A stretch of 41,339 nucleotides of DNA, taken from the IMG/VR virus record IMGVR_UViG_3300037468_000156, positions 1 to 41,339 of that record. One strand, given 5' to 3'. The stretch is from a virus. The translations under genes were made by a program, and so were the position numbers. Positions 4,188 to 41,339 of this stretch are shown here, in pieces (positions within the stretch are counted from its first letter, which is position 1; every line of letters begins with the position of its first letter). The notes under the pieces were generated by a model. It ran no database searches. It was not told the origin of the DNA and worked only from the letters and a program-made list of their open reading frames with translations.

Positions 4188-4560
4188 AGATAACCTTCAC
4201 TGTGATGGGCGACTCTTCGTCGCCCGCGTGCACGGTCGGCACTGGGCCATCCGTGCGGTCGATCAACTGCTGCAACAGGCCGGGCGTCGGTTCGTTGATG
4301 ATCGACTCAGCCCAGCGCAGGGAAATAAGTTGGCGCAGCGTAAGCTCCTTGGGGAAGCTGTTGTACTCCTTGATGTGATGCTTGTAAGCCTTTGCAATCT
4401 CTGGGCCGCTCATGCTCAGGATATCGCGCATGACGGCCGCAAACGATACCCCGTCGCGCGCGTGCCCCTTTGGATTACCAGACTGGCCCTTCTTCCAGGG
4501 CCGCCCGGTAGCCTTGCGCTTTGGCTGCTTTGCGCTGCTGACAGCGGATTTACTAGGCAT
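4129..4560 (-). CDS. Terminase small-subunit-like DNA-binding protein (DUF5681-type N-terminus)
   Basis: 143 residues from the ATG at 4560 (MPSKSAVSSAKQ), which overlaps the upstream stop by 8 bases. The N-terminal GRPWKKGQSGNPKGHARDG is the GxPWkKGqSGNPkG motif of the DUF5681 family, often found next to large terminases. The middle holds helices (LTLRQLISLRWAESIINE) and the tail is Gly/Ser rich. A small-terminase role, recognising the packaging site, is inferred from position; the motif alone shows only a basic DNA-binding-like segment. An upstream start at 4587 lies inside the glycosidase-like gene and lacks support. Confidence 0.75.
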   Translation of the reverse strand: MPSKSAVSSAKQPKRKATGRPWKKGQSGNPKGHARDGVSFAAVMRDILSMSGPEIAKAYKHHIKEYNSFPKELTLRQLISLRWAESIINEPTPGLLQQLIDRTDGPVPTVHAGDEESPITVKVIYVRRNGGGAAGTSPESSEG

Positions 4561-5620
4561 ACGTCTGCACCATCGCCGCGCGCGCAAACTGCCTGCGGCT
4601 GTCCTTGAACGCCTCGTACATCCACTCTTCCGCCCGCGTGCGGTGAAGGTAGGGATGGCACGGGGCCGTCAGCAGCGCCCGAATATCCTGAGCGATGGCC
4701 TTGGGCGTATTCTCCGCCAGGCCCTCAGGCCATTCGCTGCCGGTGATGAACTGCACTCCCTTCGCTTGCTCCCGCTCCATCCACGGGCGGAACCGCTCAA
4801 ACCCGTGCTTGCCGAACCACGCGAACACGATATGGTAATGCGTAGTCGGCATCAGCTCGGCACGGATCGCGTCCAGGTAACAGGTGATGTCCATGTTGCC
4901 CGATGCCTTCCACAGAACATCGGTGTAAATCGGGTGCATCGAAGTGAACACGTCGCCGCCCGATGGGTGGTAGATGCGAAGCTCGTCAATCAGCAGGTCG
5001 GTAAGCGTCTCACGCAGCCAGCGCGAGCACTGTGGGTTGTTGATGTTCGGCTCGGCATCCTTGCCCGCGTATCGCTTGAACGATGCCACGGCCATCGGGT
5101 CATAGATGCACGGCGTACCGGGTGGCATGAGCGCCTCGCCCTCTTGCGATTGCGCGTTGATGCACATGACGTCGTAGGTGTTGTAGCGGTTGCAGCACTC
5201 GAGCACGAAGTCCAGCAGGTACGCGCGCGCCTCTGGATTCCACGGCGACAGGCAGCCCCAGGTTTGCCGCGCGCCCTGGTAGATCGGCTTGCGGTAGACG
5301 TGGCCGAACTCGTCCCACACGTACCACTCATCAGGGGCACACGTTAAAGTGGTGGTCGGCAGCATGAGTAGGACTTTAAGCCCAGCGGCCCGGCAGCGCG
5401 TCACGATTTCATCCCCAAGTGCCCAGTCACGAACGCCCATCTTGGTTTCGATCCTGTCCCAGTGAAGGAACTGCAAGACGGTTTGTACTCCGCAATCCCT
5501 GAACCGCTTGAGATCGTCAACGTGCATGGCCTTGGAAGTGAACTGCGGCAGCGTGGGAATCTCACCGATGTCGGGCGAGTCCATGAGGATGTTAAATTCT
5601 GACGGGCTGATAAAACTCAT
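4553..5620 (-). CDS. Glycoside hydrolase-like TIM-barrel protein (GH42/clan GH-A-like)
   Basis: 355 residues from the ATG at 5620, which overlaps the upstream stop by ATGA. The beta-strand/helix pattern resembles a beta-galactosidase-like barrel: GVQTVLQFLHWDRIE (44-58), AAGLKVLLMLPTT (78-90), DEWYVWDEFGH (97-107), CLSPWNPEARAYLLDFV (123-139), VMCINAQSQEGE (151-162) and FITGSEWPEG (291-300). E160/E162 and E296/E299 sit where clan GH-A enzymes place acid/base and nucleophile. No signal peptide is seen, so it would act in the cytoplasm or on the particle. It sits between an aaRS-like gene and the terminase, an unusual place for a glycosidase. The substrate is unknown, and a non-catalytic role is possible. 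Confidence 0.6.
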   Translation of the reverse strand: MSFISPSEFNILMDSPDIGEIPTLPQFTSKAMHVDDLKRFRDCGVQTVLQFLHWDRIETKMGVRDWALGDEIVTRCRAAGLKVLLMLPTTTLTCAPDEWYVWDEFGHVYRKPIYQGARQTWGCLSPWNPEARAYLLDFVLECCNRYNTYDVMCINAQSQEGEALMPPGTPCIYDPMAVASFKRYAGKDAEPNINNPQCSRWLRETLTDLLIDELRIYHPSGGDVFTSMHPIYTDVLWKASGNMDITCYLDAIRAELMPTTHYHIVFAWFGKHGFERFRPWMEREQAKGVQFITGSEWPEGLAENTPKAIAQDIRALLTAPCHPYLHRTRAEEWMYEAFKDSRRQFARAAMVQTYA

Positions 5621-6318
5621 ATCACCACCTGGGGACTGGCTTTGATGTTCCGCCAGTCCCAATCGCCGTCTGGATCGTCCAGGCACGACATGCGAAGCAG
5701 CTTGACTACCTCTTGGGGTTTCCATCCCGCGTCACGGTAGGCCGCTATTCTGTGCGTGCCATTTGTCTTTTTGACGTCGTCTAGCTCACCCTTCCCTCGC
5801 AGCCTGGGCAGGAATATCTGCGGTATCAGCGGCAGGCCAAGAAGGATGCTCACCTCCGAGTAGAGCGCAAACCTGGGTAGTAAATCCATGCCCACAATCA
5901 GCATGTCGACGCCCAACATGGAGTCAAGCAGCCTCACCTTTGCCGTCAGGTAGCGCGTGTAAGGATACCAGTCGTGGGTTGAGCCGACGACAGTGGGGAA
6001 CATGACCGGCGGGAATACGCCCGTGTCTTGCGCGTCGGGCCAAACGTCGCGGATCCGCTCGCTCACCATCATATCGGACTCGTAGAACGCGCCGTCGAAC
6101 TCGATGCCCAGCCAGAACATATCTTCCATCCACTGCTCGCCAAACTCGCGCATCTGCTGTGCGGTGTGAATCTTGAGCCAGGCTGTTTGATCGTCCTCGC
6201 CGCGAAAGTAGAACTTCCCGCCGGTGGATCGCGCGGCGTGCTGGTTCGTGAGCGCGAGGTAGGCATGACCAAGGTGGGGAAGCCCGTTGAGAGTTGGGTT
6301 CAGCCGCGCCGTGGTCAT
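5617..6318 (-). CDS. Truncated class I aminoacyl-tRNA synthetase-like protein (GluRS catalytic-core type)
   Basis: 233 residues that follow the GluRS/GluQ-RS catalytic core in order: RLNPTLNGLPHLGH (5-18, matching RxAPSPTGxxHxGG with HIGH as HLGH), GGKFYFRGEDDQ (33-44, like GGKFxLRIEDTD), MFWLGIEFDG (67-76), IVGMDLL (141-147, like IRGEDHL) and VKKTNGTHRIAAYRDAGWKP (182-201, the KMSKS-type KLSKR..TSV..YR..GY segment). The protein ends there, without an anticodon-binding domain, and is shorter than GluQ-RS (about 300). The Arg of IRG is Val here, so amino-acid specificity may have changed. It probably adenylates an amino acid or similar carboxylate; the acceptor is unknown. It is coupled to the glycosidase-like gene by ATGA. 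Confidence 0.68.
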   Translation of the reverse strand: MTTARLNPTLNGLPHLGHAYLALTNQHAARSTGGKFYFRGEDDQTAWLKIHTAQQMREFGEQWMEDMFWLGIEFDGAFYESDMMVSERIRDVWPDAQDTGVFPPVMFPTVVGSTHDWYPYTRYLTAKVRLLDSMLGVDMLIVGMDLLPRFALYSEVSILLGLPLIPQIFLPRLRGKGELDDVKKTNGTHRIAAYRDAGWKPQEVVKLLRMSCLDDPDGDWDWRNIKASPQVVI

Positions 6319-7237: not shown

Positions 7238-7484
7238 ATCCGTGCTCCTTGGCGTGGCAGTCATGGCACAGCACCGCCACGTCGCTCATGAGTTCGTGCC
7301 ACAAAATCGACTTGCCGTTTCGCCTGTATCGCAGGTGGTGCACCTCCAGCCGGTTCGGGCTGCGGCAGGTGAGGCACTTGTAATCGGCGTACTTGAGAGC
7401 GCGCTCCCTGATGCGCTTCCAGTGCGGGGTACGCAAGTAGAGCCGGTACACGAAGCGTCGCCAGGCGAGTTTGATTCGCTTCAC
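7230..7484 (-). CDS. Small HNH endonuclease
   Basis: 84 residues with the HNH/McrA-type motif: C37-x2-C40, LEVHHLRYRRNG with H49 and H50, DVAVLCHDCHAKEHG with C73-x2-C76, H77 and H81. The cysteines form a zinc site and the histidines the ββα-metal nuclease centre. Short phage HNH proteins often assist packaging when next to terminase genes. Here it lies between lysin and holin-like genes, 2.7 kb upstream of the terminases, so homing-type mobility is an alternative. The start overlaps the lysin stop by ATGA. Confidence 0.88.
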   Translation of the reverse strand: MKRIKLAWRRFVYRLYLRTPHWKRIRERALKYADYKCLTCRSPNRLEVHHLRYRRNGKSILWHELMSDVAVLCHDCHAKEHGYG

Positions 7485-9361
7485 TTCCAGAACTCCGCCA
7501 GCACGGGGATATATCCTTCGATGTTATATCCGGCCCATCCGCCCGACCCTGAATCACGATTCCCAACCTGGAATATCGCGCCGCCTAGAATCTGCGATGG
7601 CAGGCCCATGACCGGCTGCGCTTCGCACGACAGCCACGACGAGCACCACGACCTGAATTGCGCGATGGTGTAAGCGTGGGCCGGGAACCCACCTACCCCG
7701 CCTTCGTCCACGCCCGTCTCGCTGCATAGCACCTTACGCTTGGCCGGGTCGAACCCGCACACTTCAAACAGCCGTTGCCAGCGCCGCGCGTACCAGATGT
7801 CAAAGTCCATGTCGTACTTGCGCGTGTACAGGTGGAACCCGATGTAGATGCCGGGGTCGTTGTTGTACAGCGGGGCCACGCGCCGCTTGAACTCGTCGAT
7901 GATCCCCGCGTCCCAGAAGTCGGGCGTGCCCATCGAGTAACCGCCCAAGCTCACCATGTAGCCGCGCTGCCGCACGATCTGGGCCGCGCTCAGTTCTGCG
8001 TCCAGCCTGTTCTTAAGCTCAGTCACGGACCCGTAGGCCGCGCCGTGGTCTTGCTCGTTGAGCGTCTCGTAGATTACGCCGGGGTGCATCTCGCCGGCCA
8101 TCATGTGATCGGCAAGCGCCTGGCCGCCCATCGACCACCCGACGTAGTGCCGGTGGACAATCACGGCATCGGGGTACTGCCGCTTGAGCTGGGCCGCCAC
8201 ACCGAAGTTATCGAAGATCAGGAAGTACCTGCACCCGCGCGCCGCGTAGTCGAAGGCGATCTGATGATTAGCCAGCACGTTTACGCCCAACTTGATCCCG
8301 ACCGGCAGGGGCGGCGGTGGTGGCGGCGGCGGTGGTGGGACGAACGGCGACACGGCGACCACGACGGTCTTGGTTTGCGTAGTCGTGTCGGCGTACTTGG
8401 CGATCAATGTGTACGTCGTGTTGACGGTCGGCGTGACCGTCGTGCTCTGCGAGGTCGCCACGGCTGCGCCGTTGAGCGTCGCTGATGCAGCCTGTGGCGC
8501 ACTCCAGGTGACGGTGGACGACTGGCCCGCGGTGATGCTTGTTGGCGTGGCCGTCATGGTGATGGCCGGCTTCGCTTCCCCCGGCCAGGCGCGAAACTCG
8601 ACGACCGCGGCCTTCGTGCCGGGGTACGCGCCTGCTACGAAGTTGCGGAACGCCGTCTGCTGATCCGCCGCCACGCCGTAGAAGTAGATCGTCCGCAAGG
8701 CGAACTCAGTCACGCCGGCCAGTGTATTCTGGAGCAGCACCAGCGCCCCATCGTCGGCTGAACACGTCGCACTGTGGCCGGCCTTCGACGCCAGCAAATA
8801 CACCGCGTCACGCTGCGCCTGCGTGCCACCTACGCACACATGATAGGTCTTGCCGTATGGTGGCCTGATGATCGTCGCCACGGGTGGGGCCTTGGTCGTG
8901 CCGCCATTCCCGCCACCGTCGCCACCCTCGCCTGGTACTTCTTCGATACCCACTCTTACACCTCGCTCGGCGGCGTCAAGCGTCGCCTTAGCCGTGACTA
9001 TGTCCGCGCCTTGCACACCAGGCCACAACGGATCATGATAGCGTTCGTCACTCAGCCTGACAATCCAGTGCTGCCCAGTGAACGATTTGTCGTAGCGAAC
9101 AGGCAGCTTCGGGTACGACACAAGCGCGATGTACGGGTACTTGTCGACCAGCGTGTGAGTCAGCCCAAGGTAGGTGATGGCCGCGCGCAAGTCGGTTGCA
9201 GTCGTGCCGTCCTGCTGCACGTCGTAGCGTTCGGATAGGGAAGTGACAGTCGCATCCTCGCCGCGGCCAACCCAGCGGGCCAGCATCAAAACAGCCGCCA
9301 GGCCGCAATCGTTTCGCCGTGGCGAGTCGGTTATCTGGGAGATGTAGGGGACTTGCGCCAT
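7481..9361 (-). CDS. Modular lysin: C39-like peptidase + Ig-like domain + glycoside hydrolase-like domain
   Basis: 626 residues. The N-terminal part resembles a C39-like papain-fold peptidase: NDCGLAAVLML with C19, GQHWIVRL with H98 and YHDPL with D110 as a possible triad. Residues 140-160 are a Gly-rich linker. About 262-337 form an Ig-like beta domain (ITMTATPTSITAGQSSTVTW). Ten consecutive prolines (342-351) lead to a TIM-barrel-like region with YETLNEQDHG (E436) and VLCSETG (E548), placed like the two glutamates of clan GH-A. It probably cleaves cell-wall peptides and glycans, as an endolysin or virion lysin. No signal peptide is seen, so export would need the adjacent holin-like proteins. 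Confidence 0.75.
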   Translation of the reverse strand: MAQVPYISQITDSPRRNDCGLAAVLMLARWVGRGEDATVTSLSERYDVQQDGTTATDLRAAITYLGLTHTLVDKYPYIALVSYPKLPVRYDKSFTGQHWIVRLSDERYHDPLWPGVQGADIVTAKATLDAAERGVRVGIEEVPGEGGDGGGNGGTTKAPPVATIIRPPYGKTYHVCVGGTQAQRDAVYLLASKAGHSATCSADDGALVLLQNTLAGVTEFALRTIYFYGVAADQQTAFRNFVAGAYPGTKAAVVEFRAWPGEAKPAITMTATPTSITAGQSSTVTWSAPQAASATLNGAAVATSQSTTVTPTVNTTYTLIAKYADTTTQTKTVVVAVSPFVPPPPPPPPPPLPVGIKLGVNVLANHQIAFDYAARGCRYFLIFDNFGVAAQLKRQYPDAVIVHRHYVGWSMGGQALADHMMAGEMHPGVIYETLNEQDHGAAYGSVTELKNRLDAELSAAQIVRQRGYMVSLGGYSMGTPDFWDAGIIDEFKRRVAPLYNNDPGIYIGFHLYTRKYDMDFDIWYARRWQRLFEVCGFDPAKRKVLCSETGVDEGGVGGFPAHAYTIAQFRSWCSSWLSCEAQPVMGLPSQILGGAIFQVGNRDSGSGGWAGYNIEGYIPVLAEFWK

Positions 9362-12361: not shown

Positions 12362-13129
12362 CTATACCCCACATATCCCCTCGCACTCCTCATCCCATAA
12401 GCTCAACTGCCCGCGCTCCTCTGCCGTGCGAAAGTCCACCTCCGCAATCGGGACGCGAGATGGATGGATGAACAAGTCGAACGGCGGGCGCACCTTGCGG
12501 ATTCGCTCGTCAACTTCGATGGCCTTGTGCCAGTCGCCATTGCCCGATTCTTTCAAGTGGTGCCAGGCGGCCTGGTCGTGATATGGGCAGAATACGCAAG
12601 CCGATTTTGGCGGCACGTCCAGCCCATGCGCCTGAAGCCATTCGACGCAGGCGGCGCGAGTCATGCGCCGTTCAATGAGCGGGTATCGGTGCGTGATGTA
12701 CTTTACGTCGCTTGACTTCATCCGCTGGATTTCGTCAAGTGATATGCCCATCCACAGCTCAACCGGCGCGCCATTGCGATTAGCCTGGAGCCAGCGACGT
12801 ATCGGTGCAATCTTCCATCGCGCCGTACACTGACGGCGTAGCATCCCTCCACCAGACGAGTTAGTAGCGGCGAATGCGGGGATGAAGATTTCCCCCCCCA
12901 CTCGGTCGGTCACGACACGCGGATCGGCATCCCGCACGGTCACGACGCGCACGCCGTGAGACTCAAGCCAGGGCGTGTACTTCACAGCGAAAGCATACGT
13001 CCCGCTGGCTTCGTGCGTTGTGTCAGCGTGAACTGCTGCATCGGGCATCGGCAGTTCGCCAAGCGCGCACATGGCAGCAAGAGTGAAGGACTGCACGCCC
13101 CATCCAAGACTTATAGACTTCATGATCAT
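12362..13129 (-). CDS. Phosphoadenosine phosphosulfate reductase-like (PP-loop family) protein
   Basis: 255 residues. The N-terminal SLGWGVQS (7-14) is a PP-loop variant, followed by AAVHADTTHE (31-40), the typical strand and D-T-x-H/E segment. RRQCTARWKIAPIRRWLQ (98-115) and CVFCPYHDQAAWHHL (178-192) match a phage subgroup of the PAPS reductase/adenine nucleotide alpha-hydrolase superfamily with extra cysteines. Relatives activate sulfate or modify nucleic acids; true PAPS reduction is unlikely in isolation. Residues G78-G79 are coded by a run of eight G (12892-12899), in frame here. The ATGA overlap fixes the start at 13129. Confidence 0.75.
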   Translation of the reverse strand: MIMKSISLGWGVQSFTLAAMCALGELPMPDAAVHADTTHEASGTYAFAVKYTPWLESHGVRVVTVRDADPRVVTDRVGGEIFIPAFAATNSSGGGMLRRQCTARWKIAPIRRWLQANRNGAPVELWMGISLDEIQRMKSSDVKYITHRYPLIERRMTRAACVEWLQAHGLDVPPKSACVFCPYHDQAAWHHLKESGNGDWHKAIEVDERIRKVRPPFDLFIHPSRVPIAEVDFRTAEERGQLSLWDEECEGICGV

Positions 13130-20932: not shown

Positions 20933-21244
20933 CTACCTCTCGCAGATCACTTCAAACCACGGTTTAGGCACGTTGCTACCCGGCCCGGTAAAGGCAACCT
21001 CCACCCGGTAGACGTGGCCCAGGGTGAGCGCAGTCATCAGCGGCAGCGTGATCGTAGCGCCGCTCACGCTGGCGGATCCGGCAGGCATGACGGTGGTCGT
21101 CACGTCCGCGCTGGCGTTCGATTCATCGTACACCTTGGGCGTCGGCCCGGTCGGGGCGGTCGTCCAGTTCGTCATGTCAAGCTGGTACGCGATGGACTCC
21201 CCAACGCCTTGATACTGTGCCCCCACCTTGCGAACGTTAGCCAT
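20933..21244 (-). CDS. Tail-region protein, last gene of the leftward unit
   Basis: 103 residues from the ATG at 21244, with GGAGG ten bases upstream; the ATG at 21253 lies directly against that site. The protein is beta-rich, like an Ig-like or fibre-end domain: YQLDMTNWTTAPTGPTPKVY, TTTVMPAGSASVSGATITLP and HVYRVEVAFTGPG. It overlaps the adhesin gene by eight bases. It is probably a virion or host-contact protein. Confidence 0.6.
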   Translation of the reverse strand: MANVRKVGAQYQGVGESIAYQLDMTNWTTAPTGPTPKVYDESNASADVTTTVMPAGSASVSGATITLPLMTALTLGHVYRVEVAFTGPGSNVPKPWFEVICER

Positions 21245-22964
21245 TGTCGTCATCCTCCTTGGGAGTCATCTTGTAGTCGCGTGTCTGTGCCGTCAGGCTG
21301 AACCTATCATCCGCCGCCATTCTGAACGAGCGCGCCTTGGCCGTCATCTTGCGAATGCCGTAGATGCCCAGGTTGAGATACACTTCCGCGACCGCGCTCA
21401 GCCCGCTTGACGCGAGCGCGCCTGTAAACGACTTGGCCGTCTGTCGTGTGAGTGCCCCGGCACTGGATAGGCTGCCGGCTAGGGACTTCCCGGTTTGGCG
21501 AGCAAGTGTGCCTGAACTTGTGACTACACCGGCCACGGACAGTAAGAACGTCTTGATCGTGGCGAGTGCGCCGCTGCTTGTGACGGCTCCAGCGAACGTC
21601 GTAGCCGTCTGCTTCGTGAGTGTGCCTGCGCTGGTGGCTGCACCTGATAGAGCCTTGCCAGTGAGCCGCGTGAGTGTGCCCGCGCTTGTGACAGCTCCAG
21701 ACACAACCAGTAGAAAGGTTTTGATCGTGGCAAGCGTGCCCGAGCTTGTAACCGCCCCGGCAAACGTCCGCGCCGTCTGCTTCGTGAGTGTGCCTGCGCT
21801 TGCGACTGCGCCTGACAGCGCCTTCCCCGTTGCGCGCGTGAGCGTACCCGCGCTGGTGACTACACCGGCCACGGACAGCAGCACGACCCGAATGACCGTT
21901 AGAACGCCCTCACTTGTGACTGCCCCGGCAAACGTTGTGGCGGTTCGCTTTGTGACTGCACCCGTCGGGGTAGTAGTGCCCACCAGCGCCTTGCCTGTCG
22001 CGCGCGCAAGCGTGCCCGCGCTCGTTACAGCACCGCTCACTGCCTTGCCCGTTGCGCGCGTGAGCGTACCTGCACTGGTGACCGCGCCTGTCTTGGCAGT
22101 GCCCGTGCGCCTGGTGAGCGTGCCCGCTGGAGTTGTCGCACCTGTCTTGGTCGTGGTCGTGGCGCGACTGAGAAGCCCGGCACTTGTGACCGCCCCAACC
22201 TTGGTCGCGCGCGCCTGGCGTGTAAGCGTGCCCGCGCTTGTGACAGCGCCGGACACAGACAGGTTGTTGACGGTGCCGCCGGCCGCAGCAAACGGGAAGA
22301 ATAGCGGTATGCCACCCCATGATATAGGCGGATGCTCGTCGTCTGTGATCGTCCCGACTTCGGTGAAGTTACGCCCGTTCCCACTGTAATCTAGGGCTCG
22401 CTCTCCCGATCCATTCAAGCATGGTAGCCAAGCGAACAAGTTTTCCGTTCGCTTTGGCAGCGTTGTATACATTTCTATATGTATTTCCGCTGCCGTCAGG
22501 CTTGCAGTATATAATTTGACCGCCGCCAATCTGCTAACACAACCCGCGCTTGTGTGGTCTCCAATCCTAACTGTCGCTACGTCCTGTCCGTCAGGTACAG
22601 TCCCGGTGTATGTTTCTTCTACCGCACCGTTGAGATATATGATATGGCTGTTTGCTGCCGTCCTCACCAACGCCAGGTGATACCATACGCCAGTTGACAA
22701 CTCGGTCGAGCCATTAGTTGTATTCCCGCCGTCGTTCCTGATTACCTCAAATCTTAGGACATTTGTTCCGCCGTTGTCGTACCACCCCAGAGTATCGGTA
22801 TAGTAACTGGAGCTGACCCCATTCAGAGACAATACATTGTCAAGTGTCCACTCATTCCCTTTTGTTACGAGCATCGCCCAACACATCAACGTGTAGTTGG
22901 CGTCATAGTCAAGTAATGCACTTGTATACGTCAGCCCGGTTGTGCTTGTAGAACGGATCGACAT
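21237..22964 (-). CDS. LamG-domain adhesin with 16 tandem short repeats
   Basis: 575 residues. Residues 1-170 resemble a LamG/concanavalin-like lectin domain: NYTLMCWAMLV, GVWYHLALVRTAANSHIIYL and RIGDHTSAGCVSRLAAVKLY. From about 237 to 531 there are 16 units of 18 or 20 residues with the consensus GAVTSAGTLTRxTGKALx, followed by an unrelated 45-residue end. Units are likely beta-helix or fibre forming. This is a candidate receptor-binding or surface-adhesion protein. It stands after the fibre genes, as in tail modules. Repeat number may vary by recombination. A long plus-strand frame through the repeats is a mirror of their codon bias. Confidence 0.8.
   Translation of the reverse strand: MSIRSTSTTGLTYTSALLDYDANYTLMCWAMLVTKGNEWTLDNVLSLNGVSSSYYTDTLGWYDNGGTNVLRFEVIRNDGGNTTNGSTELSTGVWYHLALVRTAANSHIIYLNGAVEETYTGTVPDGQDVATVRIGDHTSAGCVSRLAAVKLYTASLTAAEIHIEMYTTLPKRTENLFAWLPCLNGSGERALDYSGNGRNFTEVGTITDDEHPPISWGGIPLFFPFAAAGGTVNNLSVSGAVTSAGTLTRQARATKVGAVTSAGLLSRATTTTKTGATTPAGTLTRRTGTAKTGAVTSAGTLTRATGKAVSGAVTSAGTLARATGKALVGTTTPTGAVTKRTATTFAGAVTSEGVLTVIRVVLLSVAGVVTSAGTLTRATGKALSGAVASAGTLTKQTARTFAGAVTSSGTLATIKTFLLVVSGAVTSAGTLTRLTGKALSGAATSAGTLTKQTATTFAGAVTSSGALATIKTFLLSVAGVVTSSGTLARQTGKSLAGSLSSAGALTRQTAKSFTGALASSGLSAVAEVYLNLGIYGIRKMTAKARSFRMAADDRFSLTAQTRDYKMTPKEDDDNG
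21372..22253 (-). repeat. Tandem repeat array of 54- or 60-base units in the adhesin gene
   Basis: Sixteen coding units of 18 residues (54 bases), or 20 residues (60 bases) for units 7, 10 and 13. The 20-residue type, with ATIKTFLLxVx or VIRVVLLSVA, returns every third unit, giving a higher-order period of three units (56 residues) over units 7-13. Units differ in detail, so the array is old or under selection for variety. Confidence 0.85.
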
Positions 22965-37168: not shown

Positions 37169-37993
37169 TCACCCAAACGACAGCCGCAAGTAACCCATTG
37201 AATCGAGCCGCCGGCGGATGAACTCATGCACGTCTTTCGGCGTGCTGAACTGATCGCCGCCCACAACGACGGTTTCACCAACCGGGTTCACCCTCAGCCG
37301 CCAGTAGGCGACCGTGGCGTCCCGGCACAGCTTCTCGATCACCGGGTAAGTCCAGCGATAGACCACGCCCGCGCTCGCATGCGTAGTGGCCGTTGACCCG
37401 TTCGCCGCCCGCTCAATCGTCAGCGTGTCCGTCGTGCCTTCCAGCAGGCTAGACACGTAGACGAACTCACTATCCACTTTGAGCAGGTCGCCGCTGACGA
37501 TCTTGTTGGCTGGCACGCTGCATGTCGTGGCCGTGGTCGTGGCAACGGTCGTAGAGAGAGCCGTCACCGTGAGCCATGCGCTGCCGTAGTCCTCATGGTA
37601 GCCCCACACCCCGGCCAGGCTTACCGCGCCCTCGTAGTCGCCGTGGCTGTCAGACTGCCACTGTGCAGTCGAAGAAGCCAGCACCCGTACCGCGTGCTTC
37701 GGGTAGCTGTTGAGCGGATACAGCTTGTACTGGCTGGTGGTCATGGCCGTCCCGTCGCCGTTCGTGAGCGTCGTCGCCTCAAGTAGCCCGGCGTCCAGGT
37801 TGAGCTGCGGCGTGGCCGGCGTGTCAAAGCATCGCGTCTCGATGCGCGGGTAGAACTGCTCGCCGGCTATCCCGTCAATCTCCCGCGCCGTGGCTTGGAT
37901 GATTGTCAGGATGGCCTCGTCCCTCACGCTGTTGTCAGTAGAGAGAGACAGCCTGCGTACCGCGTCAACCGTGGTGTAGTCAGCTCGTACCAT
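37169..37993 (-). CDS. Head-tail connector protein (gp6-like adaptor)
   Basis: 274 residues, longer than a typical gp6 adaptor (about 100). The N-terminal DYTTVDAVRRLSLSTDNSVR, TIIQATAREIDGIAGEQFYP and the C-terminal YPVIEKLCRDATVAYWRLRV form the helical adaptor core. A beta-rich insert of about 130 residues separates them (residues 80-220), with TATTCSVPANKIVSGDLLKV. It attaches under the portal. The insert may decorate the neck. The start overlaps the glycosyltransferase gene by 14 bases. Confidence 0.72.
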   Translation of the reverse strand: MVRADYTTVDAVRRLSLSTDNSVRDEAILTIIQATAREIDGIAGEQFYPRIETRCFDTPATPQLNLDAGLLEATTLTNGDGTAMTTSQYKLYPLNSYPKHAVRVLASSTAQWQSDSHGDYEGAVSLAGVWGYHEDYGSAWLTVTALSTTVATTTATTCSVPANKIVSGDLLKVDSEFVYVSSLLEGTTDTLTIERAANGSTATTHASAGVVYRWTYPVIEKLCRDATVAYWRLRVNPVGETVVVGGDQFSTPKDVHEFIRRRLDSMGYLRLSFG

Positions 37994-38678
37994 TGCCGCC
38001 CTCCGTCGCCGTTGTGTCTGGCCGGATCAGCTCAGGGTGATCCGCCCGATACGCCCGCCAGGTCTTGTCGTCCACCCAGCCCGGCGTAAAGTGCGGCGTG
38101 ATGACCGACGTGTCGCACACGATGGGAATACCCGACTGCCTCAGCTTGTCGCTGAACTGGAAGTCCTCGCTCGGCATGTCCATCGCGCCGTCGATGTACG
38201 GGTATCGCCACCACGGGCGATTGAAGCCGTTCGCTTCCATCGTCAAGAACGCGCGCCGCTGGATTGCGATTGCCGCGTGCCCGGCTACGTCGCCGTTGTA
38301 CGCTTTGCCGTCCACCCAGTCGGCCATTGAGTGCGCGCTGCCGTCCGCGTCGCGCACAAAGAAACAAGCGTCGTATGGTGGGCCGCGCCTGAACGCGAGC
38401 GCCACGACTACAGGCAGGTCATGCCGCGCCAACCCGAACAGGATGTCCGCCGGGTGGTCGTGGTCGTTGTCCAGCATGATCAGCGTGTCGTCCGGCTCCT
38501 TGCTCAACGCGAGGAACTGAACCGCCAGAAAGTTGCGCGCGATGTCTGTCCGATAGCTTTCGATGGGCAGGCGTTTGTATTGTCGCCTTTCGCCCATGAT
38601 AGCCACGTTCAGCAACGAACTCACGCACGGCCCGATAACGGCTCGCTCCAGCAACACGGCCCACCATACGTTTTTCAT
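37980..38678 (-). CDS. Glycosyltransferase-like protein (GT-A type)
   Basis: 232 residues. DDTLIMLDNDHDHPADIL holds the metal-binding D-x-D (D70, D72, D74), and LPVVVALAFRRGPPYDACFF, AIAIQRRAFLTME, WWRYPYIDGAMDMPSEDFQF and VCDTSVITPHFTPGW follow the usual GT-A order, with a catalytic-base candidate in PSEDF and a metal His in TPHFTPGW. The product could glycosylate a capsid, tail or host polymer. Location between a capsid-side protein and the connector is unusual. It starts three bases after the upstream stop. Confidence 0.75.
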   Translation of the reverse strand: MKNVWWAVLLERAVIGPCVSSLLNVAIMGERRQYKRLPIESYRTDIARNFLAVQFLALSKEPDDTLIMLDNDHDHPADILFGLARHDLPVVVALAFRRGPPYDACFFVRDADGSAHSMADWVDGKAYNGDVAGHAAIAIQRRAFLTMEANGFNRPWWRYPYIDGAMDMPSEDFQFSDKLRQSGIPIVCDTSVITPHFTPGWVDDKTWRAYRADHPELIRPDTTATEGGNGTS

Positions 38679-41085: not shown

Positions 41086-41339
41086 CTAGCCCTCACCAAT
41101 GTTAAGCCGGTCTATTGCCTGCTTAGTCCATCGTTCATATATCCCTACAATCGGGTCGTATTGTTCGCGAACCACGTCCGCTAATACGCGCCAACCACGC
41201 TTACGCATTTGACGTGCCTGCTGTGTTTCGCTCGTTAGCCAGCGCGCGTAACTGGCCCGGTTGCCGACAATGGTTGTAAGCGGCGGGTGCGATTCAACGT
41301 AATACTGTTTGCCGTACATTTCAGACCTGCGCCCACCAC
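41086..41339 (-). CDS. Head/neck-region structural protein, 3' part of split gene
   Basis: This is the C-terminal part of the 169-residue protein that starts at 406. The frame enters the window at 41339 with codons for GGRRSE and then MYGKQYYVESHPPLT, identical in protein sequence to the left copy, and stops with TAG at 41088-41086. The Met at 41319 is internal and should not be taken as a start, because the left copy shows 92 residues ahead of it. Two bases separate the stop from the ATG of the prohead protease gene at 41083, so the two are probably translated together. Confidence 0.85.
   Translation of the reverse strand, partial: GGRRSEMYGKQYYVESHPPLTTIVGNRASYARWLTSETQQARQMRKRGWRVLADVVREQYDPIVGIYERWTKQAIDRLNIGEG
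41190..41339. repeat. Terminal direct repeat, right copy
   Basis: Second copy of the 150-base end repeat, with variant bases at 41215, 41251 and 41296. Removing one copy closes the molecule at 41,189 bp and restores an intact reading frame across the junction. It could be a physical terminal redundancy, but the sequence differences fit two population variants joined during assembly better. Confidence 0.95.

Follow-up and report, generated by a model that had tools for sequence, protein, structure and literature searches.

A phage-borne family of compact GluRS-like proteins paired with a TIM-barrel gene, a candidate amino acid ligase for a non-tRNA acceptor

We analysed a stretch of viral DNA of 41,339 nucleotides (hereafter the window), in which two overlapping genes on the complementary strand encode a small protein resembling glutamyl-tRNA synthetase (GluRS), which we call mini-GluRS, and a TIM-barrel partner. 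The two genes and the ends of the contig are arranged as follows:

5617-6318, complementary strand: mini-GluRS-like protein of 233 aa, assigned from the open reading frame, Pfam and NCBIfam matches, alignment, a structural model, and fold and profile matches
4553-5620, complementary strand: TIM-barrel partner of 355 aa, GH42/beta-amylase-like by sequence and fold matches
5617-5620, complementary strand: ATGA overlap of the mini-GluRS stop and the TIM-barrel start
1-150, no strand assigned: terminal direct repeat, copy 1, from repeat comparison
41190-41339, no strand assigned: terminal direct repeat, copy 2, with 98% identity to copy 1

The mini-GluRS reading frame is intact and has an ATG start (complement of 6318..5617). 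The TIM-barrel gene likely starts at the ATG at 5620 rather than at 5725, and the ATGA overlap likely couples translation of the two genes. The terminal direct repeats (150 bp, 98% identity) are consistent with a complete assembly of the contig, and no tRNA genes were found in the window. Elsewhere, the complementary strand of the window encodes a PAPS-reductase-like protein (12362-13129; phrog_424, E 9.5e-35), a LamG-domain protein with a long degenerate repeat array spaced in multiples of about 54-57 bases (21237-22964), and a protein with a peptidase C39-like N-terminus (Pfam E 5.2e-6) and a further C-terminal region (7481-9361). The last of these lies beside small membrane-protein-like genes in what is probably a lysis region, and it has homologues near the gene pair in one relative (L024) and also in L027.

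When searched against Pfam, the window mini-GluRS matched the GluRS/GlnRS catalytic domain alone (PF00749, E=1.7e-11, residues 4-82); its best NCBIfam match was GluQ-RS, scoring 50 bits where the cut-off is 250, and a PHROG search returned no match. The top PDB fold matches of an AlphaFold model of the protein (pLDDT 90.8, pTM 0.89) were all GluRS (E 6e-13, TM 0.73 by query length), and a profile of 18 relatives matched GluRS in the PDB at E of about 1e-22, spanning both the N-terminal half and the part from IRG to KMSKS. From these profile and AlphaFold matches, we conclude that mini-GluRS has a class I synthetase fold of the GluRS type, with the HIGH and KMSKS elements, the latter degenerate in the window protein. 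The protein stops about 45 aa past KMSKS, leaving no anticodon-binding domain, in keeping with the original prediction of a stand-alone core. That prediction had read a GluRS-like protein from a series of motifs and had staked itself on a class I fold and on motifs shared by close homologues: the motifs are all present, the resemblance is far beyond chance by the Pfam and profile matches and by the identity to relatives given below, and both the fold and the conservation were found.

Relatives were found in IMG/VR with a degenerate DNA pattern (HxGH-x14-GG-x4-RxED) followed by profile scans, which together gave 21 further loci with an intact gene and one truncated gene (L043); a second profile scan of IMG/VR added nothing. 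Another intact copy (L128) came from a TIM-barrel query, bringing the total to 22 further intact genes, several of them near-identical to one another, in addition to L043. No relatives were found when viral contigs were scanned with the window's mini-GluRS, TIM-barrel or capsid protein as a single query. The aligned members are 226-252 aa long and align end to end, with 28-54% identity to the window protein. In a maximum-likelihood tree they form one clade on a long branch (support 100/100), separate from GluRS, GlnRS, GluQ-RS and megaphage GluRS; the tree program warns of long branches meeting at the base of the family, and the tree does not fix its exact sister group. Among the matches listed when 84,980 prokaryote species were scanned, none was a full-length family match; these matches were partial, of the GluQ-RS/GluRS type and mostly to residues 5-110, and rare cellular or prophage members may exist. 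Matches from the phage collection were set aside as bacterial-type GluRS, GlnRS or GluQ-RS genes or megaphage GluRS, and a match in Microbacterium phages Bush and Blett as a brief stretch within an unrelated ORF. The gut entries filed as 'Bacteriophage sp.' (MT836547.1, MT838755.1, MT837607.1 and MT835591.1; L003-L006) carry ordinary bacterial-type GluRS, GlnRS or GluQ-RS genes and may, for that reason, be bacterial sequence deposited under a phage name. The family has no name in Pfam or PHROGs, and we found no description of it in the open-access literature; going by its sequences, we regard the mini-GluRS clade as a previously unnamed phage-borne family.

Alignment of the family located the following residues in the window protein:

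6304-6306, complementary strand: Arg5, invariant in the family
6265-6276, complementary strand: HLGH (residues 15-18), the class I HIGH motif, with HxGH invariant in the family
6193-6198, complementary strand: Glu41-Asp42, with E or D at position 41 and Asp42 invariant
5893-5895, complementary strand: Val142, where GluRS has the IRG Arg
5758-5775, complementary strand: V-K-K-T-N-G, a degenerate KMSKS

The residue roles we assume are those of Arg5, Glu41 and Arg205 of GluRS and Cys229 of GlnRS: we take family Arg5 to be the equivalent of T. thermophilus GluRS Arg5, which binds the substrate carboxylate, and position 41 to be the acidic residue that binds the alpha-amino group. Together with Arg5, the HxGH residues and Asp42, the invariant positions are Pro8, Asn11-Gly12, Tyr20, Asn25, Thr125, Asp132 and Gly143, and the window protein also contains GGKFYFRGED (33-42), LGIEFD (70-75), I-V-G (141-143), KKTNG (183-187) and YRDAGW (194-199). 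KKTNG, which had been offered as a core motif, is present in the window but as a degenerate KMSKS, a loop that reads [VIM]-S-K-[TSRH] in most members and V-K-K-T here. S-K at positions 183-184 is kept by all but two members, the window (K-K) and L039, the only one of the 18 aligned members without Lys184 (17/18 retain it).

In GluRS, the IRG Arg recognises the acidic side chain; GlnRS has Cys in its place. Position 142 is Arg in 13/18 aligned members and is V/V/V/T/C only in a window clade made up of the window, L024, L012, L026 and L027. The change from Arg to Val to which the original prediction had drawn attention is thus real at residue 142, but it belongs to this clade and not to the family. 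As the Arg is kept in most of the family, a Glu-like substrate is likely there, whereas its replacement by V/T/C suggests that the window clade has probably moved to a different substrate, with Gln or some other neutral amino acid the more likely candidate. A dN/dS of about 0.05-0.06 in the L030 group indicates purifying selection; the ratio was higher in the window clade (0.29-0.50), and several other comparisons were saturated.

The same residues bear on whether the protein activates an amino acid. One alternative is a nucleotidyl- or adenylyltransferase on the HUP fold that has lost amino acid activation and serves in sugar adenylylation, in sugar nucleotide formation or as a binding subunit only. 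Such a protein would fit the retention of HxGH throughout the family alongside the changed IRG Arg and KMSKS Ser of the window, the cytidylyltransferase-like proteins among the weaker viral fold matches, and glycosyltransferase-rich neighbourhoods that could use a nucleotide sugar. However, the GluRS-specific Arg5, acidic position 41, Asp132 and most IRG and SK positions are conserved, and Pfam, PHROG and NCBIfam gave no sequence match of mini-GluRS to nucleotidyltransferase families. We consider this alternative unlikely and propose that mini-GluRS probably still activates an amino acid.

The distance from WLG to IRG is 70-76 aa in the family vs about 133-163 in fetched GluQ-RS sequences (a comparison by motif hits, in which the L047 hit is spurious), which indicates that the connective insertion is about halved. 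In GluRS and GluQ-RS, the insertion shortened here holds the zinc site and accommodates the acceptor, and a new conserved C-terminal motif, CLxxxxxxWxxxNIxxxP, stands in place of the remaining GluRS parts. The original prediction had pointed to GluQ-RS, and a tRNA modification of this type would have mini-GluRS glutamylate a modified nucleoside, such as queuosine, of a host tRNA. In favour, GluQ-RS is likewise built as a stand-alone core with no anticodon domain, alphaproteobacterial GluQ-RS is similar to the first 75 residues of mini-GluRS, and the best NCBIfam match is to GluQ-RS, albeit far under the cut-off. Yet I, L or V at the GluRS Thr position after RxED is said to characterise GluQ-RS (PMC3542578), and the family has instead D (window) or D/N/T/Y (aligned members) at this position, residue 43. 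The halved connective domain falls short of the full GluQ-RS insertion, the family is a clade of its own, no family contig contains TGT (queuosine transglycosylase), and this explanation leaves the constant linkage to a glycosidase-like gene unaccounted for. GluQ-type modification has become less likely on the evidence of TGT, residue 43 and the connective domain, and we now judge it distinctly improbable.

A tRNA acceptor is also implied if mini-GluRS is a minimal translational synthetase that charges host or phage tRNA-Glu or tRNA-Gln for late protein synthesis. Large phages carry synthetases, and a 634-kb phage (LR745206.1) encodes a 285-aa GluRS whose connective domain is apparently mostly absent (L124:12004-12861). 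Since this megaphage gene sits in an array of synthetase-like and EF-G-like genes, loss of the connective domain is compatible with a tRNA acceptor. The family clade, however, lies apart from megaphage GluRS, its proteins have no anticodon-binding domain, and their neighbours are carbohydrate and structural genes. Furthermore, no other synthetase family (PF00133/PF00587) exceeded the cut-off in 24 contigs, and tRNA genes are absent from the family contigs except for one doubtful tRNA-Gln in L012. A translational role therefore seems to us very unlikely. The missing TGT, synthetases and tRNA genes, together with residue 43, lower the likelihood of a tRNA acceptor, although modified tRNA can come from the host, and we think it fairly likely that the acceptor is something other than tRNA.

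The model of the TIM-barrel protein (pLDDT 93) has beta-amylase, GH164 and GH42 as its closest folds, a barrel of the GH-A/beta-amylase type, and its sequence profile is closest to GH42 (E 3e-7). Glu162, Asp174, Trp127 and Trp201 are invariant in its family, the first of these located as follows:

5135-5137, complementary strand: TIM-barrel Glu162, invariant, within an xGExxxP setting, from alignment

We take the xGExxxP setting to resemble the beta-amylase catalytic-acid motif. The usual second catalytic acid is not conserved (position 296 is E/D/Q/H/N/M), for which reason the TIM barrel may not be a hydrolase. Tandem duplicated TIM-barrel genes occur at L040:10618-12731, L041:1336-3700 and L128:3195-5299, and the second copy in L040 has Gln at the possible second catalytic acid.

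The original prediction had proposed, as a check, a search for co-occurrence with the glycosidase-like gene, and this was observed at every testable locus: the TIM barrel is present wherever mini-GluRS is followed by enough downstream DNA and is unseen only in L010, L015, L028, L039 and L043, whose contigs stop a short way downstream. The complete alignment of TIM barrels proved too divergent to scan with, and two subsets served as queries; these retrieved seven contigs, all with mini-GluRS (7/7), one of them new (L128). The pair lies upstream of terminase in the window, L026 and L037, downstream of capsid genes in the L030 group and L040, between portal and capsid in L034, and after a connector gene in L027. 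As the two genes are kept together at different genome positions, we propose that they are inherited or moved as a unit, and they are found across unrelated phage backbones.

Glycosyltransferase genes of families GT2 and GT4 (with an FkbM methyltransferase) precede the pair in many loci, GT2 being detected in 13/23 contigs and GT1/4 in 11/24, and GT17 is also among the neighbours. A CUT2-type sugar importer (permease, substrate-binding protein and ATPase) joins the pair in many loci, its permease directly after mini-GluRS in the L030 group, L033 and L042 and after the TIM barrels in L040, L041 and L128. These importers, several with an ATPase as well as the permease and substrate-binding protein, lie among head and tail genes (L030:10333-12316, L033:10699-13300, L040:13389-15964, L041:3679-6268, L042:4111-7613 and L128:5299-7871). 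The substrate-binding protein of L030 has no relative in the phage collection, and we found no account in the open-access literature of sugar importers next to genes of this kind in phages. A weak match to rhizopine-binding proteins was set aside, as the solved-structure matches are ordinary sugar-binding proteins. L038 has a CUT1-type importer instead: directly after its TIM barrel (L038:11724-16897) lie an SBP_bac_1 protein with two permeases, unrelated to the CUT2 importer, and a melibiase/beta-L-arabinopyranosidase-like enzyme.

No Pfam-detectable glycosyltransferase or transporter was found in the available contigs of the window, L026, L027, L034 and L037, which leaves the TIM barrel as the one link to sugar in the window clade. 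A head-module gene of the window (37980-38678, complementary strand, 232 aa) is a possible glycosyltransferase, with GT-A-like stretches (DND..., SEDF...), no more than a weak match to a glycosyltransferase (PHROG E=0.069) and a short similarity to L034:8781-9551.

In L026 and L028, genes for N6/N4 DNA methylases lie close to the pair, and groups derived from amino acids can occur in the DNA of phages; both points would suit an enzyme that attaches an amino acid to a hypermodified base of phage DNA or to its sugar. Methylases are not constant neighbours of the pair, however, and base-hypermodification genes were not recognised among the window genes examined; we rate this explanation as exceedingly improbable.

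We propose that mini-GluRS is a tRNA-synthetase-derived amino acid ligase whose acceptor is not tRNA but most probably a sugar or a sugar conjugate, and assign this reading a probability of about 0.5. We count in its favour the fold and catalytic residues, the monophyly of the phage family, purifying selection, the TIM-barrel linkage, the carbohydrate neighbours, the short WLG-to-IRG spacing, the absence of TGT and other synthetases, and two precedents for synthetase cores outside translation, namely MshC, a CysRS paralogue that joins Cys to GlcN-Ins, and GluQ-RS (PMC9437257). The degenerate KMSKS of the window protein (VKKTNG) counts against it. In the mechanism we envisage, ATP and an amino acid bound in the GluRS pocket would form an aminoacyl-adenylate, from which the aminoacyl group would pass to a small hydroxyl or amino acceptor other than the tRNA 3' end. 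The acceptor would most likely be a sugar or sugar conjugate, conceivably prepared or recognised by the co-translated TIM barrel and, in many relatives, also by phage glycosyltransferases and the sugar importer. The gene neighbourhoods favour a saccharide over GluQ-type tRNA modification, and we put the chance that the acceptor is a sugar at about even. The purpose might be decoration of a glycan on the virion or host surface. More tentatively, then, we suggest a system of phage glycan aminoacylation, in which the GluRS-derived ligase and its glycosidase-fold partner, often with glycosyltransferases and an importer, would put an amino acid on such a saccharide.

Few synthetase cores are known to have been put to use outside translation, and each of these has given unexpected chemistry (mycothiol, glutamyl-queuosine). 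Mini-GluRS would extend this recruitment, and the compact phage family with its constant partner is a two-gene module open to direct expression and assay. If the acceptor is a sugar, phages make aminoacylated glycans, which would account for the joint presence of importers, glycosyltransferases and a GluRS core in the midst of virion genes; if this acceptor is proven, the whole cassette is a new system. Glycan aminoacylation, if true, would be the first case of a GluRS/GlnRS-type core acting on a sugar.

GluQ-RS (YadB), the glutamyl-queuosine tRNA-Asp synthetase, is like the family a stand-alone GluRS core with HxGH and an IRGxDL-type segment and without an anticodon domain, and alphaproteobacterial GluQ-RS shares roughly 33-48% identity with the N-terminal 70-100 aa of the family. 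In contrast to GluQ-RS (285-300 aa), the family proteins are about 235 aa long with a halved connective insertion, form their own clade, are phage-borne, always stand beside a TIM barrel and, in the window clade, lack the IRG Arg. With GltX (glutamyl-tRNA synthetase) the family shares the fold, HIGH, Arg5, acidic position 41, IRG in most members and the SK of KMSKS, but it differs in having no anticodon-binding domain, half the connective domain and the new C-terminal motif. The partner resembles GH42 beta-galactosidases and GH14 beta-amylases in its TIM barrel and in an invariant Glu at the apparent catalytic-acid position, yet shares only about 10-15% identity with them, lacks their C-terminal domains and does not conserve the second catalytic acid. 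The importers of the relatives, which are absent from the window, have the permease, lipoprotein-like substrate-binding protein and ATPase of CUT2 importers of the Rbs/Ara/Xyl type, with a binding protein closest to CbpA and other sugar-binding proteins, but they lie among phage head and tail genes and their three proteins score below all curated equivalog cut-offs. MshC, in which a class I synthetase core couples an amino acid to an amino sugar, would be the parallel in function; MshC derives from CysRS, whereas Pfam, fold and profile place mini-GluRS in the GluRS ancestry.
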